NCBI GenBank assembly: GCA_004335635.1
Contig: QAXH01005684.1
Location: forward strand, 21,807 to 85,806
Source: Chloromonas sp. AAM2
Lineage: Eukaryota; Chlorophyta; Chlorophyceae; Chlamydomonadales; Chlamydomonadaceae
DNA: 64,000 nt
Reading direction: 5' to 3'
Shown here: positions 8,001 to 50,411 of the stretch, in pieces
How the letters are laid out: each line of letters opens with the position of its first letter
Position numbering within the stretch: the stretch's first letter is position 1
Program-made: the position numbers and the translations under genes
The notes under the pieces: generated by a model
The model's database searches: none
Told to the model about the DNA's origin: nothing
What the model saw: only the letters and a program-made list of their open reading frames with translations

Positions 8001-11000
8001 TGTTGTGCTTCAGCTGACGCTGACTGATCATCGTCATGTAATTGAAACTTAATAAGCCTGGACATTCACGGGGACATGTGAACTGTGCAACCTGTGCACA
8101 GGCGCGTGACATTGCCCAGAAGTACGCCTCCGGCGCCTCCCCCAGGGCCACGTCCGAGGAGGTCATCAAGCCAACCAACGGCACACTTAGGCGCACTCTG
8201 CAGGTGGGACACGTGACATGGCAGTTGGTGGTAGTTGCCCGTGGTGATTTCATACGTGGCATGGCAGTCAGTTGGGTTGGCCTGGCTGTTTGAAGAATTG
8301 AACGATCAGGTCTGCAGCCCGCAGTGAATCTGTTATTCCAGACAGGCAAGGTTGGTCTGCCGACTGCTGGAAGCATCAGCCTTGACTTGGTCATCTTTCA
8401 ATGAGCTTCGATGGCTTTCCCGGCATAAAGACAAGCCCACCACCAGCTGGCTGGCCACCGGTGCAGCGCACTAGGCAGGGTTTGACTTGGTCAGCCGGCA
8501 GTTCATTGGTCACAAAGCTGAGGCGGTTGTGCAGATGATACAAACGCTGCCATGGCACATGATGTGAGCCATGCTTTCACGTGTGTTTTCACCCTCTGTT
8601 GTCCCTTGCTTTGACGCACAGAACATGCACCAGGCGCATAAGGCACTTCAGCACGAGGCTGAGCAGCTTCGTACCATCTTCCCCCATGGCCTGTCCATGT
8701 CTGAATTTACGTCCATGGCCAGGCAGCAGTCCAACACAGCGGGGGCACCGGATGTACTCAACTTCCTGCGCAACCATATGGCCAAGGTAGGCGATAAATC
8801 ATGTAGGGTAGAGAGCGCAGCACAGACTCATTAGCAGGGAAACTAGTTCTACTAGCTGATGGAGAAGGTAAGCCGAATCGAGGGAGTTGTGGTTTTGCCG
8901 GTACTGCAGCGCACAGACAGATGCTCAACACACTGCTGTGTGATTCTGCTTTGCCCGACATTACCGCCATACTGACAAGTCCCCACCTGCCCTAGTCTGC
9001 CTGCCATGCGCGTCAGTTTGATGGGTGCCGGCTGATGACTCAACTTCCTTGCTCTTTACAGCTGACCGCTGAGCTGGCAGGCCAGCCTGGCGCCCCTCCT
9101 CCTCCCGCCTCCAGCGGCCGCAGCCAGCTGCTAGGCAGCCCCGCCAAGGCAGCAGCCGATAGCCCCACCGCTGCCGCTGCCACTGCTCCCGTTCCGGTGG
9201 CGCCGGCTGACCTGCTGCCGGCTGTGGCTGCCGGGGTGCGCAAGCTGCGGACTCTGTCCGAGAGGAAGTGGCGCGAGAGCCCGCCCATGCAGATCAGCGC
9301 ACAGGAACTGGCGGATGTCATGCAACTCTACGTGGACGAGGTGAGGCTACTAGGGCTAAATTTATATGAGTTTGAGGTACGGGTGTGTTATCTAAGGGCT
9401 GAGGGTAGGGATTCAGGACTAAGGGCATTTGATTTGAAATGAGTCTATAGAGCTAAGGCCGTGTCAGTGAGGCAAGGCTTTGACGTCTCCGGCATCGTTG
9501 GCACTCCATAAACCTTGCCGAATCACACAAAACTGCATTTTGCACAGTTTTTTGTCACTCCGACATCACGTCATCACTCTGTCATCACTCCGTCATCACT
9601 CTTTAACAGATCCTGTCAATCACCAGCTGGGCTGTGCAACACATGCCCATCACCGCAAGGCGCATTGATACCTGGCTTGCTGACAAGCTCACACTCAGGA
9701 CAGGCTTATCAGCATGCTGCATCCATGTTCTGCAGGGAGTCCTGCAAACCAAACCCTGTGGCTACTATGCCTGTCTGCAGGTTCGCCGGCTGCAGGGCAA
9801 GTCTCCCCTATCAGACAATGGCGGCGCCTACACGCCGCGCGAGGACATTACAAGCAACGCTGATCTGGAAAACGTGAGAAGCCAACGGCACCAGCATGCA
9901 GCCGTGACCTGTCAGGGTCCGGTGCTGCACCATGAAGCGCAGCTGCTCCCTTGCTGGCAAACATTTTAAAGGAACTCACATGCAGCGGTGTCCGCTGCCT
10001 ATCCAGCACAGCTGCTTAATCATGAGGCAACACACGTTTGCATGAAGGCTCATATGCCCTTCGTGTAGAATGTGTGCATGCCTGGTCTGCTCCACACATT
10101 TAGAGTTCAGCAGCAAACTGCAAACTGCTTGTGTGCTTGTTGGTACCACCACTGTGTCGGTCCTGGTTGCCCTTCTCCTGCTCAGGCCCTGTCAGACAGC
10201 CTGCGTGCCAAGGAGGCCGCCCGCACCGCCGTGTCTGACTCTCAAGCTGCCAAAGCGGAGATGCACCAGGCCAAAAGGGACCTGGATGAGGCAAACCGCA
10301 GGGCGGCGGCGACCAAGAAGAAGGAGGAGGAACTCAAGGTACGGGCCAAGAGAGGAAGCACGTCGGAAAGGTTGAGGATAAGTGGGGATCTGTTTGGGCT
10401 TGCAATGCTCTTAGCTCGCTATGTGTGATGTGAACGTACAAAGCACAGTGCAACATGGTTAATCAGGCTGGGAAGGAAAGCATGGTTGTGGCAGTCAGAC
10501 TGAAACATTTGTCGGTGTGGTGCCACTGGCATCTGAACCGGGCTTGCACCAGACGTTCGCCCCCACTTAGGAAGAGAAGCACTGATGGAATATTAGCTAG
10601 TTTCAGAGCTTCATGACCGACTACCCTATGTCACATGCTGTTCATGTGTCCCATGTGCCCACAGGCCCAGGTTGCGGCCCTGCAACAGCAAGTCCGTGAG
10701 GCCAAGCAGGCAGCCAAAGAAGCAGCCAAGGAGGAAGCTACAGTCACGCCCATGACCGACACAACCGCATCACGAGAGCCTGCACCCGCTGTGGTTTCGG
10801 AGCCAAGCGCTGACGCTGCCCTGTACAAGGTTGTGGTGCACACCAGTGACATGTCTGGAGGCGCATTCGACGGAGATGTGTGGGTCACACTTTACGGCAG
10901 CGGGTATCACACTTCAGGGGAGATCAAGCTGGAGAGCACCAGATACAGGTAGGTGTGCATGGAGGAACATTCTGAGCAGAGAGCACCATTCTCTTGAGGT

Positions 11001-14000
11001 CTGGAAGGTGGAGTGTTCAGAAGACATTTGGACATCAGTTTGAAGTTGAGCTTGCACTTTAGACCCTTCCACAACCAACTTGGTCACAGAGTTCACGGGC
11101 TCACAGTTTGTATGCAACTTTCGCCAAGCCTTCTAGTAGTAGTACTACTGTGAGTAGAGTAATCCTAACAGGAGTTGCCAGGTGTTATACAACGACATCT
11201 ACCAGACATTTACCTCGGCAAATTGAAATGCTGGACAAGTCCTAAGTAAACTTCGATGCTCTGACCTGTGAACAGCGCAGACATCTCAACAACTCGACTC
11301 TTGCACAATCCTCAAGTGCATGTTGGTGCTCTGCTTGCAGCTTTGACATTGGCCAGGATGACGACTTCACTGTGGCAGTGCTTCTGAGCAACATCCCTGA
11401 GGACATGAAGATAGAGAGCATTGGCCTGCGCATGGGAGAGTCAGAGATCGGAGATGTGACGTGGCATGTGGCCAACGTGGAGGTGAGTCACGTGACCTGA
11501 TACAGGTTGGGGTGAATCATGTGGTCTGAAAAAGCCTCAAATTGAGTCACATGGGTCCAACCAATGCTGCAGAACACCATACGTCATTCATAGTTCAAAG
11601 TGGACTTTGTGGCATATGCTCAGATAGTGTCCGCAGCAATTGTAACCGTTACATTTCCTACTGTGATCCCAGGTTACGCCACCCAAGGGCAAGGCGATCA
11701 GCTACCATTTCAACGATTGGCTCAAGGCCGGGCCAGTCAACCGGCTCTTCCCCAAGGTAGAAAACGATACTGCCCTGGTGGACTACAACGTTGAGCTCGT
11801 TACCAGCGACTACAGGGGAGCGGGCACTGATGGTGCTGTGTACATCACTATGGTCGGCGAACTGGTGAGTTATCGACGGGCCATGCACTTGTTCTTTCCT
11901 GGCGCCCCTGTTCCTCAAGCTATCCTGGCAGCGGCTGCTCCTGGTGGGTGGTACCCATGTCCTTGTTCTGCTGGCATGCATCAGCATGGACTGGAAACAC
12001 AATTAAACTTTGAGGACCACAACACGCATATATTTGTGTCATGTTGCCAAAAGGTAGCGCCGGGCCAAACGGTTGACTGCGCTGCAAGGTTCGCGACCAT
12101 CATGGGGTGACCATCATTTCTTGCAATCTAGTTCCGGGGCTGATCAGCGTACTCCCAACGTTGGAGTTGGCGGCTTTTTGAGACTTTTAGAGACTGATGC
12201 AATCACATGCTCCCTGATGATGATGATGCCGTCGTCTACCTTGCTGCTTTGAAACATGAGTTGGTTCCTCGACCTAGTGAGTGCTAAATTCGTATGTAAT
12301 CTGATCGTTGCTCATTGCCTTCATTTGTCTCGTTGTCGCAGGGCATGGCACCAGAGGTCCTCCTCAAGCCGAGCATGCTTATCGGTGGGGGCGATGCTTC
12401 ACGCCTGTTTGCGCGCAATTCGACCGACAAGCTGCTGGTGCCTGCAGCAGATGTGGGCGATCTGTCGCACGTCGTCCTGCGCTTGGCACCCGCTGACGGC
12501 GGCGCTAAGGCAACTAGCTGGGCGCTCAGCTATGCCAAGGTAGAGAATGTACACAACGTCTGTAAACAAGTAGAGATCCAACAGTGTGTTGTTAGCCTTG
12601 CCGCTATTCAGCAGTGCTAGTATGCCATGAACTGCACGCCTCATGGTAATGCTGCGTCAGGATCTCACTTTCTTTATTGCTTTTGATTTTGAATTTGAAT
12701 TTGAGGCGTCACTGAAGTGCGCAAGGTCTTGCATGGACTTGCCTACAGGTGGTCCACTCGGGCACGGGAATGGCTTCCATGTTCTACCACTACGACTGGC
12801 TTAGCACGGCTGACGAGTCTCGCGTAACGTTGACCGAGGGCTGGACCTGCCAAGAGCGTACGGCCTACAATGTCAGCGTGGTCACTGCGGACATGCCGGG
12901 AGCCGACTTTACTGGATCTGTCTACATCACTCTCAATGGTTGCTGGGGCTCCAGCTGCGAAGCGCTGCTCATCGGTCCAAAGTCCACAAACCGATCGCAT
13001 GCGTTCAAGCGCGGTGCGACAGACGTTTTCAAGATGCAGCTTGAAGACAAGGGCGCGCTCAGCAGCATCACAATGCGTGTCGAACCTACATCAGAAGACG
13101 ATGTCACCTGGAATTTGGACAAGATTCTGATTAACCAGCCGGACAACAATCAGCCGGATGCGGCTTTTGTCTTCGGCGACTGGGTGAACGGCGCCACGTC
13201 GGTTACTGTTTACAAGGACACGCCACAGGTCGCCTACAAGCTTACAATTGCGACGTCTGCTGACTCTACAGCCCTGACCGGGTCAATGTTCGCGGTTCTT
13301 GAGGGTCAGCTTGGATCGACCCGTGAAGTACAGCTCGTGAACGATAGCTGTGCAGGCGGTAACGACAACCTCGCCTCTTTTAAGCCAGGTGTGTTTTGGC
13401 GCCCTTGCACTGCCTGGCTACCGCATCGCCTTTTGATCAGGCCTATCCTTTGCATTTTGTGCGACCTGTTCCCGATCCAATCACCTTCCGGGATTCCTTC
13501 CCTGCCCGGCTTGCAGCACGATGTGTATCGTTGATCTCAATGACTCAATCCCTCGCTTGACCTACAGGTGGTTTGCAAGAGTTTGTTGTCAACGCAAGGG
13601 ATGTGGGCTCTCTCAGGAGCCTCACGCTCAGGGCTGCCAAGGTCTCATCTGCTGCAACCTGGAAGCTGGACCGTATGCAGGTGAAGAATGCCTTTCACTC
13701 CATTGGAACATCCTTTCCAGTTTCAACCACACATCCAACTCCTCCAGCCGTCCCTGTGCTTGCGACTTTCCTCTGCCTGCCTTATTTGAGACCTGCGACT
13801 AACCACATGCTTACACTAAAACTAGCTCAGTGTAACTTCTCCGGACTTTCCTATATTTGCATCTCGCCAGCCTGCAACGTGTCAACCTGCACATCTCCGA
13901 CTGACCACATGCTTCACCGCACACTGCATCAACTCATCCATGCAGGTTACAGTGGGCGATGCCGCCGTCCCCGTGGCCTTCGCATGCACAGCACCGCTTG

Positions 14001-17000
14001 AGGCCGCTGCTGCCGACGGCGGTAGCCTTGTGCTCCCTCGACTCCTGCAGCCAACAGAGTACAAGATCACTGTGGTCACCTCAGAGAGTCCCGAGGATGC
14101 AGGCTTTGATGGACAGGTGTGTGGGCTGCACATGTACGGTATGCCTTTTTTAGAGTGCTGCGTGCAAGTCACGCTTATGTGTCGCAAGACACAATGTCGT
14201 TCGCATGATTTGATAAGCCAGGTGCTGTCATACCGCGCATGGTAATACACAAAGCGATACTTGGGCTCTTTGACCTGCTCAGGTGTTCATCAAGTTCGTT
14301 GGAGTGGAGGGCGCATCGGAGGAGGTGCAGCTGACCGCCCCTGGGGTCACTGCACCCTTTGCCATCGGCACCACCTCACACATGGCGGTCAGCGCAGGAG
14401 ACGTGGGCATGATGAACTACGTTGAGGTGAGCAGGCATCGTCTTGTTTTGTGTAAACAGTGTGTGAAAACGTCGTCCGCGTTGGCCACCCAAACAGTTGA
14501 ACCGATAACAGCATCAACAGATAACACCATAAACAGGTAACACCATAAGCAGATAAAAGCCTGGAGCAAATGCACGCAAGCCCATTAATCCTTGTACAAG
14601 CTGTTATTCTCAAGCCTTCAACCAAATGCACCCACCCTGTCATTGCCAGCTTTCTGAATTATTGAGTTCAGCAAAGCCTTCTACGGCCACTGCCAGCATT
14701 CAGCTATCAGTTGTCAGCACTGTCACATTTGCTTTCCATTATGACTTGTGTAAATGTCATACCTGTGACCGTGTCATGTTTATACTCCATGTATACGCAA
14801 GTAAACCTCATGTCACCGGTGATTGTGTCATGCACAGGTGCGGCTGAACCAGACCGGCAGTGCCACCTGGTGGCGGCCCAACCGCCTGGAGATAACCAAC
14901 ACAGCCACCGGCGAAATGGGCGTCTTCCGTTACGACAGCTGGATGAACTCCTACGGGTGCAGTTACAGCGTGTACCCGCAGACACTCACAAGCTACCGGG
15001 TGCTGGTGCATGCATCGCCGGACTTTGTGCTGGAGGGATTGGGAGCCAAGGTGGGAGGCACAGCCATAGACAGTGTTAGGTGGGAGGGACAACCAAAGAA
15101 GCAATTGCTGTTAATATTGCACATGATAAATCTTGTACGCACTATCGCTTACTCGTATTTTCGATACTCTGTGCATCGCCAGACTTTGTGCATGCCCCAG
15201 TGTACCAGCCTTTGGGCTGATGGGCACGTAGACTGTACTGGCATCGCCCGCCTTTGTGCTGATGGTTGATTAGGTGTGCTTTCAGACGAGCATATGTCAT
15301 ATAAGTGTCCGGTAATCAGCGTGACCCAAGTCATACAGCTGCCTGCAATGAGTGTCCAAGGCTTGCGATTACTCACATCAAATTGCACGCCACCCCCTGC
15401 ACTTGACCTGGCCTATCGCAGGCCCAGGCCTCGGCCTCCAAGCTGTTTGTCAAGCTGTCCAACTGGAGCTGTGAGAGCGAGGAGGTGGAGGTGCCGCTGC
15501 CAGAGGGGGGCCTAGGGCCGGGGGGTGTTGCGGAGCTTACAGGCTTCAAGTGCTCTGTCAGCTGGGCTAGCAGCGTCGTGCTGAGGGTGGACGGAGGGCA
15601 GGTGGGTTTGATTGCAGGGTCTGCGTTTGAGACATGTTTCTACCCTGTCCACGTGTGATGTCATGCACCTTATCGGTCCCCTTGCATGTGCGCATCGAGC
15701 CGGCTCCCTTGCCTCAAACAAGCAAGGATTGCTGATAGTTGCAAGTTAATCAACAGCTGTAGCGGGTGGAGCCGCTTGGACTGTGTCATGCTCCAGACGA
15801 TGTCAGAATTTCGTTCTGTGACCCATGACAGCTTCCCTGATGTAAACAGATAAAAGTGATAACAATACTTTGCTTATGTGTAGTTGTCTGGGTGCCCAGA
15901 AACAGACCCTGGTGTCGTTGGCCAGCCTGGCATAAGTCGTGCCCTGCATGGATGGTCCGATTGCAGAAGGTTCATGTGCGCATGGTTGAGCTGGTCAACG
16001 AGTCAGCCAGCGACGGCAGCAGCAGCTACTACCGCCACAACGGCTGGGTGGACTCCTCCGCCCCCGCCACCCTGTCCTCTGCGGACATGTGCACCTACTC
16101 GGTCACGCTGCACACGGCCAAGGGCAAGGGATCGCTGCCACCAGGTGGGCATCTGATAACGACAAATCGACGGCATAGTTCCGCGCCATACAGACCGAAC
16201 CCAAACCCAAGTGGGCATTAGTCTCATTAGTCCAAGTGGGCATCAGTCCAAAAGGGCATGAGCATTTGAGTGCTAGCAGAACTCAACCCGGTTTTCGTTC
16301 ATATACCACTGCAGGTGCGGGTGGTTGGCTCCTGCATCTTGCTACTCTTATGGATGGATGACCTCATCACAAGGGCGGTTGTATCATAAGTTCATGATCT
16401 GCTTCACGCTTGAATCAGTTTTTTTCATTAGTATGCTTTACTGACGACCAGCATACTGTGCCCTGTTGCCTGCAGGTTCCCGGGCTTATCTCTCCCTGGT
16501 GCCACCGGGCTCCACCGAGCCCTACGAGGAGGTTGCCCTGGCCCTGCCCGAGGAGGGCGGTGCCGCGGGCAGCGCTATGGCGGTCGAAGCAAGGACCTTC
16601 CAGGCACGTGTGAAGGTGTTGGTTGAGCCCTTTTTGCCCTTACAAGCATGGTGTACACCTGCATATTTGAAAAGTGAAAAGTCAGTTGCTGTGGTACAAA
16701 GTTCAAGTGAGATTACGGTATGAATTTGTGTATGAATGCTTGGGCCCTCTACTGTTCCACTTGCGGGACGATATACATGTACAATGACACTTACTTTCTC
16801 GCCCACCCACCCACTCACTCACTCATTCACTCGCAGGTGGGCGACGGAGGGGAGGTGCGGCTGCGTGTTGTGGGCAAGGACGCAGCATGGGGCCTGCAGC
16901 GCATGGATATCACCAACACTACTGGGAGTGGGGCACAGGTGGGGGTGGTGCAGTGCTGACCAGCTTGCCAGTGTGCCTTGATGACCCCAACGAGCAGCCT

Positions 17001-38000: not shown

Positions 38001-41000
38001 TTAATTTGTTATTATGATGTACCAGGATAGCACCTGGTACATCATGTAAACCTCTAACAACAACATTACAAGACACTGCTTGCTTGCCTTGGTTAGCTCT
38101 ACACAACCGCAGGATGCACTGACTGGACTGATTCAGCCTTGTGCCCAACTTCTGTCAACAATAGTGCTCCCTGCTGACTGCTTCTTATGTGTAACGAGCT
38201 CAACACCGCTCTTTGCTTACTGGTGTGCGTGCACAGATGGGCGCCAAGAGCACCTTTACGCTGAGTGCTCCGGCCTTGGGCGACCTCCAGCGAGCAGTGG
38301 TGCAGATGGAAGACAGGGGCGGCAGCAGCACATGGAGGGTCAAGAGGCTCGAGGCTACCAACAAGAGGACGGGCGCCACAGGTCAGGGCGCAGCGGCCTG
38401 TGCACACTGACACTCCTGCATACTGCACCAGAACTGTATTCCTATGCACCTGACACTTGTCAGCAATGCGCAGTGCAACCGATTCCAGACATTTAATGCA
38501 ACCAGTAATCACGTGCTATGAATATGCAATTGACAGAGCAAGACGTGCATACTGTCCAGATGCAGATGCTGCAGGGCCTGAGACAAACATACGCACCCAC
38601 TTCCTGTGTTAATGTGCAGGCACGTTCGTCAAGGAAGACATCCTCCGCTCGTATGATTACCAGACCACCCTGGATGAGGCGCCAGCCGTGGACTACTCAG
38701 TGGAGATCGCCACAGGCTCAGGGGCTGACTACAACGGACAGGTGACAGGCCCAGCAGGGACAGCAAGCATGCAGGCTGTAGACATGTATCGCAGTAATAC
38801 AATGTGTTTTGTCGCGTTTGTGGTGACTGCAAATGCTGTGGTTGGAGATAATCTGGCGCAGCTTGTATGAGATGCAGTCGCGCTCAGGCCACGTCTGACG
38901 TAATGGATATACATGGTGCAATGCTACCTATCCAAGCTGAAGTTTAGTCCATGGACTTGCAGGTTTACATGGTCCTGATTGGCAGCGAGGGACGCACCAA
39001 GGAAATCCCACTGCAGCGCTGGTGGGTTGCGAATAGCATGCTCGGGTGCTCAGCTTGACTTGAACTGACGTCTGTTGTCAGCAGACAGCATGGGCTTGGG
39101 CATGTAGCTTGCACAATGTGAAGGTTGCGCATGCTTCACTTCGCCTGTGAGCTTATGTATGACCCATAATCTCAAAATAGCATGTGATTCAGCATGGATT
39201 CAGCATGGATTTAGCATGTGAGTTAGCATGTGATTTCTTGTTTCCAGGGGTGACTGGCCCTGGTACTGGGCCAATGGCACGTCGTACATGGACGTCAGCG
39301 GCTATGCTGTGGGACCACTCAAGGCCATTGGGCTAAGGGCGGAGAACGATCAGGGAGCCACCATGCCGCTGGAGTCTGTTAAGGTGTCTGTCAAGGAGTC
39401 GGGCGCTACCTCAATCTTCAAGTGAGTGTGTGTTGTCAAGTGCTTTGGCATCACGCCATTGTGCAGTTGTTGTTTGCTTGGTGCTCAAGTATTGCCGCAT
39501 TTTGCATCTTGGGTCTTGTTTTGCATCCGTGTCTCAAGCTCCTTGAGTAATCAGTCATCTTGCAGACGATCTTAAAAACAGTATAAGTTGCACTGGATCT
39601 CTCATTGCGCAAAAGGCATCGTGTGGATGTCTGTCTCCCGTTTTGCAGCTGGGACTCTGGCCTTGTAATGGGCAAGGCGCTGCAGATCGTCAAGAAGAAG
39701 ATTGAAAACACCGAGTGGCTGCTGACAGTGAGTGACTCAAGGATCAGTCGTGATGTCACGCAACCATGAGATGCCCTCTGGCAGCTAGCATGAGTCCATT
39801 CTGCTACCTGATACTTATGTTTACAACACCTGCCATGTTGTGGATGTGAGTTCGATTGACGTCCATACAGCTAAGTGTAAACCAGTCCTGACTAACTTCT
39901 GGATAGCTAGCTAGCTAGGTGGTGCCGTCGCTAAATAGTGGTGCGTGACTCAAAACGTCATAAACTCAGGAGATACCCACAGCAGGTGGAAGAAACAAGG
40001 CATTGTCAGTATTGAGCTGGGTGTCCCAGGAAAAGGTCGGTCATGTTGCGTCACGACCCAGCTCTATCAAGCAACTCATTATATTCATCAATAGTTCGCC
40101 TGGGCCCTCGTGCTCTTAATTACATGGCATTCACAACGGGCCGTGTCCTTGCTTCAACTTCGTGCCGTGCTTGCCCTGAGCCTCGCTCTTGTGCCTGCCT
40201 TTGCCCTTCCCCAGGTGCACACTGCAGATTACCGCGGTGCGGGCACGGACGCTGACGTGTACGTGACCATTCAGGGCGACGAGGGGGAGGTGGCGGAGAG
40301 GAAGCTCAACAACACACCGGTGGGTAGCGCACCAAACATACACAAGCCTGTGAGTGCTAGAGTAAGACGCTGCTTGGCAGTGTAAACTTGACGTAGTTCC
40401 TGTGATGCAAAAGAAGATTGCCAGGCTTCAGTATCTGCCTGCAGATGTCCAATAGTCATAGGTGAACCACAAGGCAATGGGTCAACCAGTCAATAATAGG
40501 CTCATGCAAGTGCACAGGTGGTAAACCAGCACCCCGGACCAGCCTTGATAGCTCAGCAGCTAAGGCGAACAGTTGCCTGATGACCACCTTTCTCCCCCTG
40601 CAGGACAACTTCTCCCGTGGTGCTGTGGACCGGTTCCGCTTTGAAGGGCCCGTGGTTGGGCCCAACAAGTCGGTCACCCTGCGCCTGGTGAGCCGGTCCA
40701 CCATTGCATGGCTAGGTCCCAGGTGGACTAATGAGCTCATGGCCGTCTGTCTGCCCAACCTAGCTACCCATGCACCGAGCACAACTGTACTGTACTGCTT
40801 CAATTTTGCAACAGCATGGAGCGCGACACTCGTGTACTGTACGACCCTATGCCCTGCTGCTGTGCACCTTGACAGTTCTCAACGCCTCGGCTGCCTCTCT
40901 TGATTCATGCAGGCCGCCCCCGGTGGTGCCAGTGCCCCCCACAGCAGTTGGCAGGTCTCCCAACTGTCCTTAACAGACATGAACACAGGCATGAGGACTA

Positions 41001-44000
41001 ACTTCTACCACTACAAGTAAGTTCAATGAGTTAGGCATGAACGTAGCAATACGTCTTGACTCTTGCTAGCGTCTGTACACTTGCATACTATGCACTGTCG
41101 TCTGCGATGCAAGCTGGATTGCCGCTGTCCTGAAGTCGACGTTGGCATAAGCGGTACATGTCTGCCAAGGTAGTGTTTTTTTCTGCAGTCACCGGCGCAC
41201 TCACCAACGGCACGTATGCTGTTCCATGTGAGTTGCAGCTGGGTGGCCCTGGACGCGCCCACCACTCTGCAAGAGAGCGGCACGTACAAGAGCCTGTACC
41301 CCTACGAGTGCACCATCAAGACCGGCACAGCAAAGGTATGATGCTTGCAGATAACGAAAGAAAGCCCATGTGGCAACAGTATACAATCGCCTATCAATTG
41401 CCTATTCATACAGTTGTAAAGGTTTAAACAGGTCGCATACATTAATACAGCCCAATCTAATCAGAGCGATCAATTCTTGAGCATATATGACGTCTCCAGT
41501 CTGGTTTCTTTACCCTCAAACACATTTGAACAGTGTAGGCAATTCTCCGCCCGACAGCCGAGACCACTGGTGTATGAGTACTCTTACTGTTGACATCCTT
41601 CCCATGCTCCTTGTAGTGCGTCAATTCTTTCCTGAGTTTTTCTTCCCTCTCTCATCTATCAATGTGCGTGGCGTTTGCTGTGTTTGACTTCTCCCACAGG
41701 AGTCTGATTTCAGTGGCGAGGTGTGGGTGCGGCTGCACGGGTGCTGGGGCACTACCGAGGAGATGTTGCTGGCGCCTGAGGGGACGCGGACACACGAGTT
41801 CAAGTGAGTGGGACAGAGGCGGAGCTGCCATGCAAGCTACACCCTGACCCTGACTCCTAATTGCACCACCTTCCAGGCATGCTAGACAGATCTCGCAATC
41901 ATTTCTATACTGTGATTAAGCATGATGGTGGTTGTTTGACTATTGTCTTATATTCCATCTGACCGCAACTGTTCCCGTGGCGTGTGGTTTGTTTTCCAGG
42001 GCTGGTGCAGTGGACACGTTCACCATCCAGGGGGATGACGTGGGCCCCTTCTCATCCATCGAGTTTGTCAGACTGGTGCCCACAGGCGCAGGTAATGTGC
42101 CCTTGCAGCTACAGCTAACTTCTTGTCGTCTTGTCTTGTTTGAAGCTTGCTGTCGCATCAACGAGCTCGTGAGATTTGATTGCCTTCTTTGCCTTGGGCG
42201 CTGATTAGCCCTGACCTTGGCTTGCGTGATGGAAGCACCATACGAACACACTTTTGTTTGCAGCGTTTAGCTTGTGTGAGAGCGCTCAGAACGCATGTCA
42301 ACAGTTTTATGCGAGTGCCCTTCCTGTGCAGGTTCCACTCGCTGGCAGCTAGAGTCCATCGAGATGACTGCCCTGGAGTCGGGCAACTCGTGCCTGTTCG
42401 AGCACGACAACTGGGTCACGGCAGGGCAGACACCGCTCATCGTGTACAAGACAATGCCCAACATACCGTACAGGTCAGTGCTGGGGGCATGTTCTGGTCT
42501 GTCTGAGTGACATATCCGGTGCTCTGCCATCCATCCTGCAGCTGCAGGCACATGACCAGAAAGCGCTTGATTCAGTCATTCATCCTGCAGCTGACAGCAG
42601 TTGACTGGCAACATGATTGTGCAAACATGGTGTTATTATTGAATCGCAAACATGGTGTTGTTATTGAATCACAAACGTGGTGTATGCTCAGTATTGCAGT
42701 GTCAAACTGCTATGACGTTATGCTGCTCAGAGCGCAGGGCAGTTTTGACTTCATACATGTCTGTTCATTTACCTGCCCACAATCTTCATGTCCTGCTGTG
42801 TCCGTCCCTGCAGGGTCACTGTGCACACGGCCGCTAGCTCGCCTGTACCCAGCTACACGCAACAGCTGCTCATCACTCTGCGCGGCATGTGAGTAGAGAC
42901 CTGGACGGAAATCCATGACAGTCACTGTCCCTTTTAGCAGACCATATGCCTATGCACGCGCGCACACGCGGATCGTGCTGGTTTTCGAGCTTTGCACCTG
43001 GAAACCAAACTCAGACTTCACTTGCCGCCCAGTCCATGCCACACCAATGCTTACGTGCTCACGTGGACCATTGTGTTGTACAGACTGTCATGATTTATCT
43101 CAGAATTGGTTGTACACTATCCTTTCCACGTCAATCATGGACCTGTATTGCAACCCATGTGTTGATCTGCGGCCTGCTTCCAGGCTTGGATCCTGTGACG
43201 AGAACCAGCTTGTGAACGGCTCGGCCCTGCCCCTGGCCCCCGGCACCCGGGAGGAGTATGAACTCAGGGACAGCGACCTGGGGGCACTCACTGGACTGGT
43301 CCTCGGGGTCATGGCAGCCAGCGCTGATGAGCAGGTGGGAAGACATGAAACCAAACCTCTGCCTTGGCGTTGTGCTCTGAAATACCTGCTTTCACAAGGC
43401 TTCCATGAGAATCAAGCCTCTAGGCACGTTGCACTGCCTCATACAGTGGTCAGATGGTACAACTTCCCTCTGGTGGTTTTGAGTCGTTCTTCCTAAGTCT
43501 CTTACTGGTATTGCCGCTGTCCACTGCAGCATCATGCCTGCTGGGTGTGTTGCAACGTCCACACAACCTTCAGACCCGTAGTTCTAGCCGACGTCCCTTG
43601 CCTATCATCATCATGCCAATATCCGCGTGTGTGCTTGCAGGCCCCAGCTTGGTTGGTGGATCGTGTGGAAGTGACAAACACCACCACAGGCGCCGTGGCC
43701 TCGTTTCCACTGGTGTGTGCCCCCGGCGCCCCCGCAGCCGCCTGGCAGCTGACAGAGGGCAAGTGGGTGCTGGACCTGCCCAGGCACCTGCCGGAGACTG
43801 AGTACACTGTTGGTGTGACCACAACCGACCTCCCAGGTGGGCCACGCGGCTGTTGCTGGCTGTGGAAGCTGTGAGCAGCTGTTACTCCCAAGGATTGTAT
43901 TCAGCAGCCACAAGCGCACGCGCTCGCACGTTGTCAAAACCACTTAGGGGCTTGACCACTCAGCATGTGTCAGCTTGGCAGCGGATGGCTTGCCTTGAGC

Positions 44001-47000
44001 TACCAAGCACCAGCCAACCCTGACCGCACCTGTGATCGTTATCAACAGTGCATGGCTTTTGGCTACAGTAGCTGTACTGTGTACTGACAGCCTTGATGTC
44101 CTGTTCGTGCAGACGCCACATTTGACGGCGATGTGCTGCTGACGCTGACGGGCAGCGAGGGCAGCACAGGGGAGCTCAGGCTGCCTGCGGACCCCAACAA
44201 GGCATACAACCCAGGACAGGTGGGACACCTCAGGGGCTGAGCCTACCACGTGCAGATGCTCATGGGGGCCGTCAGTCAGTTCTGCATCTTGCACTTGAAT
44301 GTGGCATCTCGCCCCCACCCTAGGTAATGCTTGCACAATCCTGAGTCCCTGAATTTTGTCCCTGAGTTGCGGGAGACGGGTATAAAAAGACAACAATAAC
44401 AACCCTCTCTGTACAGCCCCCTCCACTTACCATTTTTGTTTTCTGACTGCCCTATGAGGCTTCTGCACCTTGCGCTTGCACTTGCAGTACCAGCATGCCT
44501 GCCGTTCGTGTCCCTCTAGCACACACCTGTTGCTTTGTTGGAACGTTGGCTGCAGAGCGACACCTTCACCCTCAAGGGCCCCGATGTGGGCGCACTGCAG
44601 AGCGTCACTGTTGCCATTGCAGCTAAGGGTTCCAGCACACAGGTAACGAGACAGCTTGTAGGTGATGGTTTTAACCACAAGTGTGCAGATAGTGCGCCAG
44701 TTTCCAACGCACAAGTTGGCGTCACATTCCACTTGATGCAATATGCCACTGTACGCTGTTTCCCGCTCCTTCAGGCACTGTGGGTGTGCTAGACTGCTTG
44801 TGCCTGTTCTTGCACCGGTGCACCTTGTGGGTTGCGTGCCTAGTTTGTTCGAGTCATGCGTGTTTTTTCCACCTTGATTTCCCTTGCAGTGGCACCTGGG
44901 TGACGTGACAGTGGCTAGGGGCACAGCCGGCGCGCCATGCAAGTTCATGTACCGCTCGTACCTCAACCAGTACAACACTTCCACGGTCCTGTACCAGCAA
45001 GGCAGCTGCAAGTATGACGTCACACTGGTCACATCAGACATGCCAGGTGAGGCAGATGAACTCCGTACCCACTGATTTGCAATCTCGAACTGGAGTGCCT
45101 TCTCTGGTTGACTGTGACAGCCTGGGAAGCAAGAACCTGGGGCTTGATTTTGATGGTGATAGCTGATTCCGATCAAATGCTTGTGTGGCCAGTAGGTCAC
45201 CTTTTTGCTTTCCCTCTTGAGCAGTCCTCCCCGGACTGAAGGCCATGTAAACAACAACAACAAATGCTTGTGTGGCTTGCGTGCGTATACTTGCATGCTT
45301 TTCCGCTCGCATGTGCACTGTGATGTTCAGTTCAGTGTTGCCAACCTACAAGCACCTGTTGTGTTGGGTAGCTGATGTAATTCTCACCGCTGGTGTGCCT
45401 CTGTACTTGTACATGCACCAGTAGTGTCGCGTCAGGGTCACACTTATCACGTATGTATTAGGGTCACACCTATACTCGCTTCCATGCTTGTGTAGGTATA
45501 TGTATACTTGTTCAAGTAGTGTAGTGCCTGACCAGGTCTTGGGCACTTGCTGCGCTGCAGAGGCTTCCGGCTTCACTGGTGCCGTGTACCTTTCCCTGAT
45601 TGGTCAGTTGGGCAGCGGCACAGAGGCCAGGCTCACACCGGCCAACCAACCGCCACACGACGCTGCAGAGGCAATCAAGGAGGCGGCAGCAAAGGTAGGA
45701 AACAGGGTCGGAGCACGCAAGCGACAAAACCAAGTCCGCCAGCTCAGAATGCCAGTTGAGCAATCTAGCCCACTGCTCGGACAGACTCAGTGCCTGTAAG
45801 AGCCTTTGCTTGTACCGGCATGGGCTTACAGCCAGTGTCTATGCCTGTGTTGCCCAGTTTTGGTATCAAGTATTACGATTCGGTTTGGGTCAGAACAGCT
45901 TGGCACATCCAGTGACTTTGCTTGTACCTGCCCACAGGAGTCTGCCCTTGAGCCGGGCAACCTGGCCGCCTACACCTTGTCAGCTGCTGACTTGGGCGCC
46001 ATCACCGGGGCAAGGATCAGGCTGGAGAAGGCGGACGCAAGCAAGCTCGACAAGTAAGCCAAGTCTGACGTCCGCCCTAGAGCCAGCTGCAATGCCAGCC
46101 CTGCGCCAAGAGCCAGTCGACTGCAGCCTGGCACAGCTCCCTGGTGCTGAGTGCTGTCTACTAGTGTATGGCTCCGGCTGGCAGATACAGTGACGTGTTG
46201 CATGTTGTCTGGCGTGTATGCGAGTACTCCTTGACATGGATTTTTGTGTGAATTTTACTGATGCATGCATGGCGGTTCTTGCCTGGTTGCACTCGCAGGT
46301 GGCACTGCGCACGAGTGGCGCTGCGTAGCGAGAGGGACCCATCCAACCCCTACGTCATGCAGCTAAATGACTGGATCGAGGTGAGCAGGAGCTGCAGTCC
46401 GTAATCAAATCTTGCAGGGTCGCTCGGCATGGCGAATTCATGCGTATGTTGGCTCTGATGTCATTCGCCAGCTGATGGCCAAGGCTTGGTCAACTCGTGT
46501 TGTTTGATCCGTTGCCTGTCTGGTACTGAACAGATGATTTCCCTTGCCTAGCCTTTCCTTGTCTACCCTCACTTGCTCGCCCTCCCTTCCCTCTCCTTGC
46601 CTGCCTTCACCTTGCCTGCCCTGTCCTGCCCTGGCCTCCCCGCAGGCCGGCGACACTGGTGCTGTGACCCTGACAGCCAGGCGGCTGGCGCAGTACTCAG
46701 CCAAGGTGGTGCTGGCACTCACCCAGGACCCGGCCAGCGGGGCGACACTGGCGGTTAGCTTCACAGGCGCAACTGAACCAACCACCACTGCAACCGCCGA
46801 GATCAAGCCGCCCTCAGGTAGCTTACTTGATGAATCAGGGTGTCCAGGTAATGGCTGGCAAAACAGCCTTTTCTCCCAGGTCCTGATATTCTACCTCGCA
46901 CCACATCTTGGTGGTAGCAGGCTGACCTCAGCTAGGTGCGGTCATCCTACCTCATGCCGCATCTCACTCTTGCTGTATGTTTAAGTGTGCGAGTCGTTGC

Positions 47001-48370
47001 GCACTGCTCTGTTCTCACACGTCTTGCCATCTGTGCCGGATGCATTTTCAGGCACCTGGCAACCGGGGTCCAACTCCGTCACCTTCGAAGCTGTGGATGT
47101 GGGCCCACTGAGCGGACTGACAGTCAAGGCACTGCCTGGCTCTGCCCCCGGACCTGTGTCCCTGGCACAGCTGAAGATGACTGATGATGCTAACGGCACA
47201 GTGGCTGCCTTCTGGAGGCCTGAGTCAGCACCGGCGCTGGAGCCAGGGGGTGAAAAGGCTGACATGGAGCTCCTGCAAGATGTTACGTACAAGGTGTGTG
47301 AGCGGAAGCGTGTGAGCTGTACAGACACAGCTGGTCATGCACAGCAAATGATAGTATAGGTTAGTGAGTCAGTGAAACGAAACTATGCACTATGGTCTTA
47401 GCACAATGTTGGCCCGGGGGAGTGGGCGGTGATTGGAACCTCTGACGCTCGACGACTTGTGAGCGCGTGTGTGGCTGATGCGTAACACTACATCTGAAAG
47501 CGTGTAATGGTTTGCTCTTTTAGGTGACCGTTGTTACCGGCGACAAGCGCGGTGCGGGCACCGATGGCGACGTCACTCTGACCCTGACGGGCGACAAGGG
47601 CGGCACGAGTGAGCTCACCCTGTACAACGACTGGTGGAACAACTTCGAGCGCGGCCGCACGGACTCGTTTGAAATCACAGCCTCTGATGTGGGAGTGATC
47701 ACGAGTGCCAAGATTGCAGTGGTGAGATGCAAAAATCGTCGAATGGTTAGGTCACTCGGAATCGTGCACGTTCATTGCTGTTGTAGCTGGTTTGTTGCCT
47801 GTGCACGCTTGACAGCTGCGGTTGATCTCACCCTTGCTTCCTGCCTGTCAGTGTGTGCGCTTCACCATCCAACATGCAGGCTGCCCTGACAACTTGACAG
47901 AGTTGGCCACCTTTTTTGAACATGTCCCAACTCGTCTGCACTTGTGTCTGCAGTCTCCTTCTGCCAACTCTGGCTGGCTCCTGTCCAGCCTCAGCGTGGT
48001 CAACACAGGCACAGGTCTGCAACACGATTTCTCACACGACAACTGGCTGGGTCCGCGTGAGGACGCCTGTGTTGTTGAACTGTCAGACAAAACTGGAGGC
48101 AAGAAGGTAAGGGCTGGTTCAGCAGGGTCATGCCAACGTTTGGTTTGGTCATGTGAATCATGTAGATGCCTGATTAACTTGGGACTGCTTTTGGACCTAA
48201 TGACAGCAGTTGCATTAGCAGTGGCACTTTGGCTCTAGTAACGGCACAGCGGACATGTGGGCTAGTCGACGCACCTGCTTGGCCCGCTTAGTGAGTGGGC
48301 ACGTGAAGGTACACCTGCCAATTGGGTGTTTTGTGTAATCGCATATCACTGCTTGTGATTGCAGGTTTGA
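4913..48370 (+). CDS. giant multi-PLAT (LH2) domain protein with N-terminal coiled coils, ~4,913 aa, ~103 exons
   Basis: GT–AG exons join in one frame for 14,742 nt, from ATG 4913 to a last exon of two codons (GTT TGA, 48365–48370). Residues ~1–75 (exons 4913–5045 and 5483–5568) are tentative. Residues ~75–550 are charged, helical and coiled-coil-like. From residue ~551 (nt 10824) to the end there are about 35 PLAT domains of ~120 residues. A typical unit has a Y-x-V-x-V-x-T strand, an [F/T]DG-x-V-y-x-t-L loop, an F-x-x-G-x-x-D-x-F segment, DVG-x-[L/I], then W-x-l-D/E-x-[I/V] and F-x-Y-x-x-W-[L/V]. PLAT domains are beta-sandwiches that bind proteins or lipids, some with calcium. There is no signal peptide, transmembrane segment or enzyme domain, so a cytoplasmic or ciliary scaffold is most likely (inference). 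Animal LOXHD1 is the closest architecture I know, but it has only 15 PLATs. Individual splice sites were chosen by eye; phases agree throughout, which strongly supports the model. Confidence 0.85.
5136..5311. repeat. 88-bp tandem duplication in presumed intron 1
   Basis: Two nearly identical copies, 5136–5223 and 5224–5311, each begin gttgcacaacgtgggcagac and end in the gttgaccagactttaact region. They differ by a couple of bases (cccactgacc versus cagctgacc). High identity implies a recent duplication. Confidence 0.85.
5483..5690. repeat. CAG/GCA trinucleotide-rich tract
   Basis: Two interrupted (GCA/GCG)n clusters lie at 5483–5560 and about 5645–5685. In one frame the first reads as an Ala-rich exon (5483–5568, phase 1 in, phase 0 out, donor gtgtag); in another frame it is Gln-rich. 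I favour the Ala frame because it joins in phase with flanking exons. The second cluster may be intronic or an optional exon. Confidence 0.6.
5819..10823 (+). CDS. coiled-coil N-terminal region of the multi-PLAT protein (10 exons)
   Basis: Exons: 5819–5905, 6428–6543, 6968–7178, 7569–7634, 8102–8203, 8622–8786, 9062–9340, 9781–9873, 10186–10338 and the 5' part of 10665–10948. All join in phase (one phase-2 junction at 6543/6968, the rest phase 0). The products are Glu/Lys/Gln/Ala-rich heptad-like helices, e.g. AELQSELMAANQELDRL near residues 190–208 and the Ala/Lys/Glu-rich helices of 10186–10338 and 10665–10760. A Pro/Ala-rich linker in exon 9062–9340 interrupts them. This region probably oligomerises or docks the protein; no named family was recognised. 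It leads directly into the first PLAT domain at 10824. Confidence 0.75.
6282..6331. repeat. 17-bp tandem repeat, three copies, intronic
   Basis: CACCACTAGATCGTCAC is repeated twice exactly, with a third slightly altered copy (an inserted G), within the intron before exon 6428. Confidence 0.8.
10824..18904 (+). CDS. PLAT super-repeat block A (domains 1–9)
   Basis: Exons: 10665–10948, 11341–11482, 11673–11864, 12342–12539, 12749–13388, 13568–13680, 13946–14116, 14283–14426, 14838–15050, 15422–15601, 15967–16144, 16476–16615, 16837–16938, 17186–17380, 17713–17912, 18077–18272, 18479–18610, 18794–18904. Domain signatures in order: 1 FDGDVWVTLYGS; 2 GAGTDGAVYITM; 3 LNGCWGSS; 4 ALTGSMFAVLEG; 5 FDGQVFIKFVGVEG; 6 KLSNWSCESEE; 7 degenerate (SRAYLSLVPPGS); 8 RGADSDGVVTMKL; 9 YHGDAVIVL. 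Exon 12749–13388 carries domain 3 and most of domain 4 without introns, unlike the equivalent stretch of block B. Domain 6 lacks a clear DG loop. Confidence 0.85.
15827..15845 (+). repeat. 3'-terminal fragment of the SINE-like repeat
   Basis: GACAGCTTCCCTGATGTAA matches the end of the 50120 copy (TTGACGGCTTCCCTGATGTAA) apart from one or two bases. It lies in the intron before exon 15967–16144. It is a short match, so coincidence is possible. Confidence 0.35.
19269..27686 (+). CDS. PLAT super-repeat block B (domains 10–18)
   Basis: Exons: 19269–19457, 19756–19901, 20107–20245, 20449–20664, 20890–21081, 21266–21364, 21554–21721, 22000–22078, 22360–22556, 22880–23030, 23261–23373, 23500–23610, 23812–23919, 24110–24205, 24420–24671, 24995–25197, 25371–25528, 25799–25910, 26154–26319, 26622–26706, 27015–27161, 27556–27686. 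Signatures: 10 FDGSVYLTLHGEFG; 11 GAGTDGAVFVTL; 12 LSGWYAST; 13 WDGQVFLTFNG; 14 YDGDVYVTLHGTDG; 15 TLGSYWATGKE; 16 FNGDLWIAMKDADG (weak); 17 PGNGTDGYLYVTV; 18 FDGNVRFKMEGG. The order matches block A position by position. Domain 18 has extra Cys residues (DEF segment preceded by GAC). Confidence 0.85.
19521..19612. repeat. pyrimidine-rich minisatellite in intron
   Basis: Repeated TCGCTTTGTCTTGCTTCGCC-type units of about 10 bp lie between exons 19269–19457 and 19756–19901. The strand bias creates spurious Lys/Arg-rich open frames on the minus strand. Confidence 0.85.
22795..22876. repeat. CT-rich microsatellite before a splice acceptor
   Basis: A (TCTCAC)-like pyrimidine tract ends just upstream of the acceptor at 22879. 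It acts as an expanded polypyrimidine tract. Confidence 0.7.
27964..38693 (+). CDS. PLAT super-repeat block C (domains 19–27)
   Basis: Exons: 27964–28152, 28442–28615, 28930–29019, 29293–29397, 29600–29773, 30108–30230, 30660–30803, 31119–31223, 31505–31633, 31874–31981, 32186–32339, 32512–32570, 32826–33077, 33286–33408, 33668–33801, 34128–34215, 34366–34407, 34584–34721, 35040–35142, 35472–35623, 35934–36077, 36332–36424, 36650–36787, 36996–37100, 37487–37612, 37850–37936, 38237–38381, 38620–38741 (5' part). Signatures: 19 FDGNVFLTLIGSEG; 20 GAGTDGDVYFKL; 21 MDGWWGSV; 22 FDGEVYLVMEG; 23 FDGDVFVTINGEEG; 24 KLANWWEESKEE; 25 degenerate (CDHTLTLFLAP); 26 RGNGHDGSVAIVM; 27 YDGQVSLQLF. Domain 23 carries an Ala/Thr/Pro-rich insertion of ~40 residues in exon 32826–33077. 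Confidence 0.85.
38694..48370 (+). CDS. PLAT super-repeat block D (domains 28–35) and C-terminus
   Basis: Exons: 38620–38741 (3' part), 38963–39021, 39248–39421, 39649–39727, 40215–40319, 40604–40687, 40913–41016, 41239–41335, 41700–41803, 42000–42091, 42332–42473, 42814–42888, 43184–43334, 43641–43836, 44113–44219, 44556–44642, 44890–45046, 45561–45694, 45938–46053, 46299–46380, 46646–46817, 47052–47293, 47524–47721, 47954–48106, 48365–48370. Signatures: 28 YNGQVYMVLIGSEG; 29 GAGTDADVYVTI; 30 LHGCWGTT; 31 YTQQLLITLRG; 32 FDGDVLLTLTGSEG; 33 FTGAVYLSLIG; 34 degenerate; 35 GAGTDGDVTLTL with a full FERGRTDSF segment. The protein stops right after domain 35, so position 9 of this block is absent. 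The acceptor at 41238 was chosen because it restores the conserved Asn-Trp of the F-Y-x-Y-x-W motif in phase. Confidence 0.83.
39178..39240. repeat. intronic short tandem repeat
   Basis: Imperfect repeats of AGCATGGATTC / AGCATGTGATT lie just before the acceptor at 39247. Confidence 0.6.
42622..42684. repeat. 25-bp tandem repeat in intron
   Basis: CAAACATGGTGTTRTTATTG plus AATCR is present twice in full (42622, 42647), with a partial third copy at 42672. It lies in the intron between exons 42332–42473 and 42814–42888. Confidence 0.8.
46540..46643. repeat. pyrimidine-rich tract in intron
   Basis: CCTTGCCTGCC/CCTTCCCTCTC-like units run up to the acceptor at 46645. The bottom strand gives a spurious Gly/Glu/Arg-rich frame. 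Confidence 0.6.
48365..48370 (+). CDS. terminal micro-exon of the multi-PLAT gene (Val-stop)
   Basis: Exon 47954–48106 ends AAG AAG before gtaagg. The acceptor attgcag at 48358–48364 brings in GTT TGA. If unspliced, the frame instead reads on through GTA AGG into the intron. The stop is therefore supplied by a two-codon coding part of the last exon. Confidence 0.6.
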   Translation, partial: V

Positions 48371-49673
48371 GCAAAGTGGATGTCAAACGGGTCCACTCCA
48401 TGAACAACCTGAACTCAACGTGGCGTGGGGAAACAGAAGAGCCGAAACCGCCTGTGCACCTTGGTCGTTGGAAATTGAGCATGAATTTCATGTCACAACG
48501 TGTGATGTCATTGGTGACCAGAGCCAACCAACTTTGGCATAGGCGTGCCGCAGCGTTGGGTGGACAGCGCAAAATGTGTATGTGACCAACCAAAGTGTAT
48601 GTGACACCAATCTGTCCGTGTGACAGGTGTCCTTTCCTATACTGTATAAGAAGATGCTTTTGCTGATGTTCTTCAAACCTTGACGTTTGTGCTCCGGTGG
48701 CATACCTATTCCATGAGCGCTGAAAGAGTGTGTCTGTGGGAATTGTCTAAATTGATCAAGAGTCGCAGCTCTAGCCAGCATGCAAGGACACGTGATGGTT
48801 GCCAGCGTCAGGCTTGGGAATCACAAACTAAGTCAAACTAAGTCAACGGATTTGCCCTCATGAAGGCTCTATGGCTTGTTGCACCTCCGTCTCAATTTTT
48901 ACACGAGTACAAGCAGTTTGGAAACCGCAATGAGTGCGGCAGTAAAGACCGAAGTATTGGTCAAGACTTGCAGGGCGTAGGTACGTGACCGCGTAGAAAG
49001 TGCGAACTATCAATGTGCAGCGGAAGCTAGTCTGACGTGCTATCACGTGGGATACATGTGTTTGTGACGGGTGCTCGGGTGCAGTAGTTTGTGCTCGGGT
49101 ACAGTACTTTGTGGCAGGTCAGAGCACGCAAGCTTGAAGGCGGTCCTTGAAGCAGGCCGCGAGAAGCGCTGTACCTATGCAGACTTGACTCAAGAAGGAA
49201 CTCGACCAGAAACAGGGTACAAGTTCTTTCAATCTGTCCCAAACTGGGGTAAGCCGGACGAAGCCAGTAGCTGGACTGGCGTAGGAAGGCTGAATCTCAG
49301 CCTAAGAAGCGCCACCAAGGCGGGATAATTAGAAACAATTGGCGTTCAAATGCGAAGACGTGCCACCCCTGGCACCCCCATAGCAATCATGGCCACAAGG
49401 GCCTCACCACCCCTTGCTGACACGGTCAGATTCCCCTGTACTAGGAGAAGTTTTTGCAATTTGCGCAATGGGTTGATGTTTGCGTTGGACGTGCTACATG
49501 GTGTGCACTCCCTCCTTGTAACAAGCGTCAGACATGCAACAACGAGCCACAAGGGCCCGCCCAGGGGTCGCAAGGCAAAAGCGCCCGTGACCAGGACTCT
49601 ATCGGTGGTGTTGATCAACAGGGACGGGAGAGGGTTATGTATAACCAACAATGTTGATGTATCTGGTCAGGGG

Positions 49674-50048
49674 TCAGAGCTGCAAAGGTTCAGTCCAACG
49701 CCCCCAAATTTGCTCATACAGTAATGTTCTGCACAAATGTTGAACGTTCATGCAACTCTGAGCCTCAGCAGTGCCAGAGCGGCCCCGGACGCGGCACATT
49801 ACGTCCCAGTCTTTGATGGCTGCCTTGATCTGATCTGGGCCACACTTGAACGCCTTGCCATAAAGACGTGCGCACACAGTGAGGTGCTTCTCCTGCAGCC
49901 TATTGCGAACAGGGTACTTCATAGCAGGAAACTTGCGCTCCACTGATCCTGGCACCATGACTAGCTCTAGCTCGGCTGCCTTGAGCCACTCAAGGATGGC
50001 TGCTTTGTTGCCTGCATTGCGGGCAATGCACTGCCAGAAGTCGCGCAC
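49674..50048 (-). pseudogene. minus-strand coding-like fragment, possible transposon remnant
   Basis: A 124-codon frame reads as globular protein: an aromatic start (MRDFWQCIARN), an amphipathic helix AAILEWLKAAELELVM, then basic segments and AIKDWDVMCRVRG. No family is recognised. Further minus-strand open frames at 50412–50735 and 50793–51071 suggest one interrupted unit, with the SINE-like repeat at 50120–50369 inserted between. Frame changes between the pieces and the lack of clear splice sites point to decay. It could alternatively be a real low-expressed gene transcribed away from the kinase. Confidence 0.3.
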
Positions 50049-50119
50049 GCTTTTAGCACTGTTGGCTGTGCCCTCCCCTCCCTTCCCCGCAACACTGGTT
50101 TACTCGAACACGCCACAAA

Positions 50120-50369
50120 TAGCCGGTTGCCTTCCTTTCTGCCTTCTGGCCTGTTTCTGCCTTCGGGCCTGATTCTGGCTTTCTTGTTTCTCCTTGCTCA
50201 GGGTAGGTCAGGGCGGTACACATCCTGTCCCGTGTCCATTGACGGCTTCCCTGATGTAACAAATCAACCAATCAACCAATATCAATCAATCAATTAATCA
50301 ATTAATCAACCAACCAACCAACCAACCAACCAACCAACCAACCAATCAATCAATCAATCAATCAATCAT
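50120..50369 (+). repeat. SINE-like repeat with TGTAA and (AATC)n tail, copy 1
   Basis: A 150-bp unit (GGTTGCCTTCCTTTCTGCC … CTTGCTCAGGG … TCAGGGCGGTAC … TTCCCTGATGTAACAAATCA) is followed by a long CAAC/AATC tetranucleotide tail at 50262–50369. A second copy is at 63065–63227 and a terminal fragment at 15827–15845. A shared body, a TGTAA-containing 3' end and a variable simple-repeat tail are typical of a retroposed short element. No internal pol III boxes were confirmed. Confidence 0.6.
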
Positions 50370-50411
50370 GTAAAAACCCTCGCCAGTGTCAGACTCTCCT
50401 GGGTGGCGAAT

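Follow-up and report, generated by a model that had tools for sequence, protein, structure and literature searches.

The window analyzed here, a stretch of 64,000 bases from the genome of a green alga, contains a tandem array of 35 PLAT/LH2 (PF01477) domains in which similarity recurs every nine domains. The register of this cycle is fixed along the array, each place in the cycle has residues of its own, and the acidic loop motif that is usual in related arrays has been lost from nearly all domains. The duplication of a nine-domain block is strongly supported by the sequence comparisons. We give about even chances to the fuller reading that this is a giant PLAT protein grown by the copying of nine-domain blocks, in which the unit of nine would be the working unit of an extended scaffold, as are the super-repeats of titin; the extended shape, the scaffold role and the partners of the protein are suggested by analogy. 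The architecture, a giant protein made of super-repeats, is a known one; what is new is its form here, a fourfold block of nine PLAT domains in an alga.

The PLAT Array and Its Gene

A PLAT profile was grown from an intron-free domain at 12866-13240. Scanned frame by frame, the window yields PLAT pieces in ordinary reading frames on the + strand over 10.8-48.1 kb. A spliced search, in which the profile may repeat, GT...AG introns are allowed and GC donors are penalised, gives one continuous coding path of 37 stretches. The first of these (10071-10823), a coiled coil and not PLAT, was left out and the last (47851-48601) was merged into domain 35, which leaves 35 consecutive PLAT/LH2 domains from 10824 to about 48106 on the + strand. 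A reading of the letters alone (the sequence-only reading) had placed 35 domains over the same interval, and all are recovered in order. In domain 35, the first part (47288-47850) comes from the final path, while the second half was set by hand as the 47930-48073 stretch of an earlier spliced path.

The open frame with domain 3 matches PF01477 with 42.6 bits (cut-off 23). Domains 1-4 together match Pfam PLAT with 119.9 bits in four stretches (E 1.2e-34), a support that covers these four of the 35 domains; a Pfam match is also listed at 47521-47715 in domain 35. A profile made from 14 of the 35 domains finds 11R-lipoxygenase in the PDB (E 3.4e-14), along with the PLAT domains of coral and human lipoxygenases, polycystin-1 and alpha-toxin. 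No chain named LOXHD1 is among the 26 solved-structure sequences matched by this profile. The predicted structure of domain 3, a low-confidence model (mean pLDDT 62.8) of one domain of the 35, is all beta. Foldseek places lipoxygenases first among its matches (E 5.4e-4, TM-score 0.60 by query length), in alignments that cover the PLAT-sized model, and as modeled the domain appears to have the beta-sandwich fold of lipoxygenase PLAT domains.

The predicted domains start 117-144 residues apart (mean 125.7). The array amounts to 4,399 residues, with a predicted pI of 4.8 and a mass of 471 kDa for the array alone, and is interrupted by about 99 introns, a count that takes in the unpatched tail. 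After the last PLAT exon the reading frame probably ends within 48107..48370 (+ strand): in a three-frame translation, a stop follows within about 260 bases of 48106 whether the exon is read through or an intron intervenes. No convincing 36th PLAT domain is found past the last exon, where scanning each frame with the profile gives a single hit, of 2.8 bits, at 48552. Further stretches that the earlier spliced path strings together at 48074-52982 were rejected as chance, since none has the conserved core and they continue into a kinase gene.

Upstream of the first PLAT domain, a coiled-coil region at 6428..10823 (+ strand) is probably the N-terminal part of the same protein, since a codon-trained spliced path joins it in frame to PLAT 1 in the predicted gene. 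Its longer predicted exons lie at 6428-6543, 6968-7282, 7514-7634, 7944-8037, 8102-8203, 8652-8786, 9062-9340, 9781-9873, 10186-10338 and 10665-10823. The region has no Pfam match over the cut-off, the matches below it being mostly to coiled-coil families, and no match in the PDB better than E 0.0056.

According to this predicted model, the gene would encode one very large protein from a single transcript. It is scarcely likely that the array is instead an artefact of the gene model or assembly, in which exons of several genes or a mis-joined repeat have been stitched together. The exons were predicted without cDNA or transcripts, and those of the degenerate domains 7, 16, 25 and 34 are the least certain in the model, together with the second half of domain 35. 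Against this, the whole array lies on one contig (the window is 21807-85806 of its 86,377 bases, in an assembly of 74 Mb). There is no N anywhere in the array. When its DNA is compared with itself, nothing repeats at block distance, and the single match is between two 44-base pieces separated by about 110 bases; this rules out a recent copy as well as a collapsed or wrongly joined repeat. Moreover, 44 kb of the window reach 3,815 bits in the spliced search, while two control contigs of 23.9 and 17.2 kb, searched on the opposite strand with the same settings, reach 145 and 62 bits.

A Period of Nine Domains

The sequence-only reading had proposed a block of nine already diverged domains as the unit of duplication, and tree and dot-plot checks had been set beforehand as tests that could refute it. 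Both came out in its favor: neighboring domains do not cluster and domains nine apart do, as shown by similarity at the block offsets, centred similarity, phmmer, register and tree.

The mean BLOSUM62 score per column is 1.188, 1.051 and 1.138 at offsets of 9, 18 and 27 domains; the remaining 26 offsets up to 29 range from 0.641 to 0.879. The period-nine mean is not reached in any of 100,000 shuffles of domain order (z 10.75 for BLOSUM62 and 9.1 for identity). The signal persists when each domain’s own mean similarity is subtracted (z 10.5, 0 of 20,000 shuffles) and when positions 2, 3 and 8 are left out (z 6.4). It is present in the first and second halves of the domain separately (z 8.9 and 7.8) and remains when columns 10-40 are removed (z 8.5). 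Columns 10-40 are the seat of most of the signatures named in the sequence-only reading. Growth of the array neighbor by neighbor was considered and is ruled out, as similarity at offset 1 is at background.

The register does not shift along the array. When each of the six pairs of blocks is compared at shifts from -4 to +4, the unshifted alignment scores best, and all 32 sliding windows of four domains likewise have zero as their best local register. Nothing therefore points to the gain or loss of a domain within the array after the blocks had been copied. The best partner found by phmmer, a search that is independent of the column alignment, shares the position of its query for 20 of the 35 domains; by centred similarity scores, this number is 22, the other 13 having their best partner at another position.

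The array was also described as 9+9+9+8, with the ninth domain missing from the last block. The 35 domains do occupy 35 consecutive places in a nine-cycle, but for the ninth to be the missing one, domain 1 must open the cycle. What the data settle is the period and not the phase, and which domain is “missing” therefore depends on where the cycle is cut. The numbering used below starts at domain 1, so that position 1 opens each of the four blocks and position 9 closes the first three.

Position-Specific Residues

All domains are on the + strand and, apart from the hand-set part of domain 35, have their coordinates from the spliced path. Taken together, they have 45 position-specific residues, compared to 14.6 +/- 3.8 when the position labels are shuffled (0 of 2000). 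The positions differ in how strongly their domains resemble each other, and the signatures that had been assigned to them are generally present where expected, though several are less exclusive than first described.

Position 2 (domains 2, 11, 20 and 29; 11784..12856, 20126..20928, 28610..30116 and 39722..41296) is among the best defined, with a permutation p of 0.00005. All four domains carry the GAGTD sequence ascribed to them, which is also found in domain 35. Position 3 (domains 3, 12, 21 and 30; 12866..13234, 20932..21667, 30120..31217 and 41303..42465; p 0.0003), which includes the intron-free domain 3, has the tryptophan expected in the same loop, as CWGSS, WYAST, WWGSV and CWGTT, respectively. 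A loop tryptophan also occurs in domain 13 and in three of the four domains of position 6 (6, 15 and 24). Position 8 (domains 8, 17, 26 and 35; 17261..18143, 25447..26627, 36344..37558 and 47288..48106) is again strongly supported (p 0.00005), and its domains match the pattern [RKP]G-x-x-x-DG, used to test the RG-x-x-x-DG variant attributed to them, as do domains 2, 11, 12, 20 and 21.

Position 5 (domains 5, 14, 23 and 32; 14060..14990, 22901..23622, 32306..33721 and 43803..44997; p 0.008) matches the EG[SA]-type loop throughout, but the pattern as tested also picks up domains 3, 4, 11, 17 and 20. Position 4 (domains 4, 13, 22 and 31; 13235..14050, 21668..22900, 31218..32305 and 42469..43748) has a p of 0.010 and position 6 (domains 6, 15, 24 and 33; 14994..16083, 23824..24584, 33722..35045 and 45013..46681) a p of 0.001.

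Position 1 (domains 1, 10, 19 and 28; 10824..11765, 19180..20125, 27970..28609 and 38694..39718) is without support when taken alone (p 0.07). Domains 10, 19 and 28 had been said to share the loss of an F-x-x-G-x-x-D-x-F segment; this holds only loosely, as SFDPD is retained in domain 10, and domain 1 shows no such loss. Position 9 (domains 9, 18 and 27; 18150..19155, 26634..27966 and 37559..38693) is weak (p 0.03). As the sequence-only reading had it, position 7 (domains 7, 16, 25 and 34; 16096..17200, 24597..25443, 35052..36343 and 46682..47287; p 0.007) is the most degenerate of the nine, with a model that is uncertain for domains 7, 16 and 34 and in the first half of domain 25.

The preserved order of unlike domains, the fixed register and the position-specific residues suggest that the nine-domain unit, rather than the single domain, is the working unit of the protein. 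The nine PLAT domains would already have differed from each other when the block was first copied, and the array would have grown block by block, with each place in the cycle keeping its own identity in all four.

The same history of block duplication could also have left a protein with no periodic-scaffold or ruler role, a multivalent tether that binds lipids or proteins and in which the nine-cycle is just a scar of growth. This is a serious contender, to which we give somewhat less than even chances. The divergence between blocks is large, with a median end branch in the tree of about one change per column. The domains of positions 7 and 9 are the least typical of the array, as expected under little constraint, and PLAT domains in general bind lipids and proteins, according to the accessible part of PMC8051682. 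However, a mere scar does not readily account for the persistence of three times as many position-specific residues as in the shuffled labels, and a register with no trace of a lost or gained domain suggests that the order matters.

Trees, Introns and the Age of the Duplications

In a tree of the domains, position labels change 16 times, compared to a mean of 26.1 with shuffled labels, and none of 200 shuffles is as low. Support within the tree is low, with three of 32 inner branches starred and the bootstrap not settled, and no position class forms a single clade. The mean pairwise identity in the array is about 0.23. Some likenesses cross positions, both in the tree and by similarity: domain 10 goes with domain 33, and domain 1 with domain 24 (position 6), which is its closest relative by similarity and by phmmer. 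The four blocks pair as 1+4 and 2+3 in a block tree (support 61/47), and the mean similarity between blocks is highest for 2-3 and 3-4.

The introns do not show the nine-fold pattern. Domains at the same position share 0.176 introns per pair, compared to 0.179 in shuffles (p 0.57), and the gene structure therefore adds no support of its own. Introns have likely turned over after old duplications. The duplications look old, as the introns are off-pattern and no block-sized repeat is left in the DNA.

The unshared introns and the cross-position likenesses are what might be expected if the nine-fold pattern had come about by repeated local selection, or by gene conversion between positions, rather than by block copying. 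We consider this very improbable. Either half of the domain carries the signal, removing columns 10-40 does not abolish it, and all six block pairs are in exact register; independent selection at nine positions in four places is a far less simple explanation of this than block copying.

An Inner Period of Three

A weaker inner period of three, which is new relative to the sequence-only reading, is seen within the nine. Similarity at offsets 3, 6, 12, 15, 21 and 24 (0.79-0.88) is above that at the other offsets that are not multiples of nine (0.64-0.77). Among the 280 ways to split nine positions into groups of three, the grouping 1-4-7 / 2-5-8 / 3-6-9 ranks fourth by raw similarity and second by centred similarity; within the halves, again by centred similarity, it comes first for the C-terminal and 19th for the N-terminal one. 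Positions 2 and 8, by their likeness, contribute most to the signal. Without that pair, the grouping is second both overall and in the C-terminal half, but 29th in the N-terminal one. This pattern suggests that the nine-block may itself consist of three triplets and that the array may have grown from three to nine to 36 domains, less one.

Other PLAT Arrays in the Same Genome

The same genome carries other PLAT arrays, on contigs C2292 and C1271, and one PLAT domain on C1705. Both arrays are tandem PLAT arrays of the same family and consensus as that in the window. For the comparison, 15 of the 24 stretches listed for C2292 were used, partial or doubtful ones being dropped, and nine of 11 for C1271, which is too short for a test of the nine-period. 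The 15 domains of C2292 show no period of nine, on the basis of only six pairs at offset 9. Here, neighboring domains are the most alike, which is the ordinary way in which arrays grow. The domains of C2292 and C1271 are also more alike (mean identity 0.32 and 0.47, respectively) than those of the window array, and they mostly keep the GAGTD loop.

A further difference lies in the acidic loop motif, taken as [ND] one or two places before F-E and ahead of the conserved RG. It is found in 16 of the 24 domains of the two control arrays and in two of the 35 in the window, domain 26 and domain 35, the latter of which keeps NNFER. In 5-lipoxygenase, the acidic residues of this loop are calcium ligands. 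If they have that role here too, the window array would be mostly calcium-independent. The accessible part of PMC4806843 has nothing on calcium-ligand residues.

The array has 31 N-x-S/T sites and 1.7% cysteine, and six domains hold four to six cysteines. These features would suit a protein located outside the cell or in its wall, and not in the cytoplasm. We regard such a location as improbable: the predicted region before PLAT 1 reads as a coiled coil, unlike a typical secreted protein.

A Super-Repeat Scaffold?

The A-band super-repeats of titin are 7- and 11-domain units of Ig and FnIII domains. Giant muscle proteins such as titin are where super-repeats of unlike domains are best known. 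In the accessible part of PMC10665226, MyBP-C forms stripes, spaced by about 43 nm, that fall at the super-repeat interfaces; the super-repeats are tied to the filament repeat, and a role as a molecular ruler is proposed for titin. The window array resembles this system in that blocks of unlike domains are copied in register, with position-specific residues and growth by whole blocks, and in that domains at the same place are more alike than neighbors, as in a titin-type super-repeat. It differs in that it is made of PLAT rather than Ig and FnIII, with one domain type in four nine-blocks, and in that it comes from an alga and not from muscle. The likeness is one of architecture and not of sequence, and the filament partner is a feature of titin.

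Among the closest known systems by description is the vertebrate protein LOXHD1, which has 15 PLAT repeats, is located along stereocilia and is required for mechanotransduction, as stated in the accessible part of PMC8051682. In the window protein, as in LOXHD1, the recognized domains are consecutive PLAT domains, and no enzyme domain is recognized. However, it has 35 repeats and not 15, and where LOXHD1 consists of PLAT repeats only, the predicted gene probably has a coiled-coil N-terminus; the two are likened by description only. No description of a nine-cycle in LOXHD1 was found among the literature matches listed or in the accessible part of that paper.

In Chlamydomonas, POC2 and MOT51 are transition-zone proteins with lipoxygenase homology domains (accessible parts of PMC4888484 and PMC6970386; POC2 is also named in that of PMC6215392). 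They share with the window protein a green-algal origin and this type of domain, again by description only, and the arrays on C1271 and C2292 are equally good candidates for POC2 or MOT51.

By analogy with the titin A-band, LOXHD1 and POC2/MOT51, the window protein is probably a long, extended scaffold, which would present one set of partner- or membrane-binding faces again and again, roughly once per nine domains. It might run beneath a membrane or follow a cytoskeletal structure, possibly a ciliary one. A more specific version of this idea, which we consider doubtful, takes the array as built in three levels (3 x 3 x 4, minus one domain), with the unit of nine acting as a molecular ruler. 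The protein would then form a mostly calcium-independent strand lying on a membrane or microtubules, close to the ciliary base or at it. Each nine domains would supply one composite binding site, and a spacing of about 35-40 nm would thereby be fixed, assuming roughly 4 nm per PLAT domain.

No description of a PLAT super-repeat was found among the matches listed from the open-licence PubMed Central literature, subscription papers being outside the scope of the search. As a case of the same architecture, the array would represent an independent origin of the titin-type design outside animals, in a PLAT array of one domain type. For long PLAT arrays, such as that of LOXHD1 with its part in mechanotransduction in hearing, no molecular role has been settled.

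The genome also carries a radial-spoke gene, and the organism thus probably makes motile cilia. The nuclear gene for the RuBisCO small subunit, on contig C1866, was joined by hand from its exon pieces. The best matches of its product are 1uw9, 9hvm and 1gk8, to which 108 residues align position for position. We take these to be Chlamydomonas entries, and entries that we take to be from land plants align to 100-102 residues only. A volvocine alga, as the sequence-only reading took it to be, would be plausible. By this subunit, the placement of the host as a green alga close to Chlamydomonas is supported.

Flanks of the PLAT array

The array of 35 tandem PLAT domains is preceded by coiled-coil exons (window 6428-9340), which lie upstream of PLAT 1. 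A 45-residue stretch of this coiled coil is matched on another contig of the assembly, C1735, at 49% (E = 2.6e-4) with one internal stop, which possibly reflects mere coiled-coil likeness. Downstream of the PLAT gene and on its strand (+) are the exons of a protein kinase (window 51565-52548), one piece of which scores 43.8 bits against Pfam Pkinase; our impression is that the kinase is of the NEK type.

Within the array, the run NLAAYT is common to the same segment of domains 25 (position 7 of the nine-domain cycle; window 35052-36343) and 33 (position 6; 45896-46039), possibly as a result of local gene conversion.

Other loci in the assembly

Multi-PLAT loci with canonical GAGTD domains are found on contigs C1271 (L012-L013; at least 9 clean domains) and C2292 (L009-L011; at least 15), and are candidate counterparts of LOXHD1-like proteins or of the Chlamydomonas transition-zone proteins POC2 or MOT51. 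On C1705, reading frames with a coiled-coil-like translation are followed downstream by a PLAT domain (L014-L015; 47379-47982), a possible further PLAT and coiled-coil combination in the same genome.

Contig C1812 is probably a contaminant of the assembly, since its RuBisCO small and large subunit pair (L017; 55533-55829), encoded in adjoining reading frames without introns, looks bacterial.
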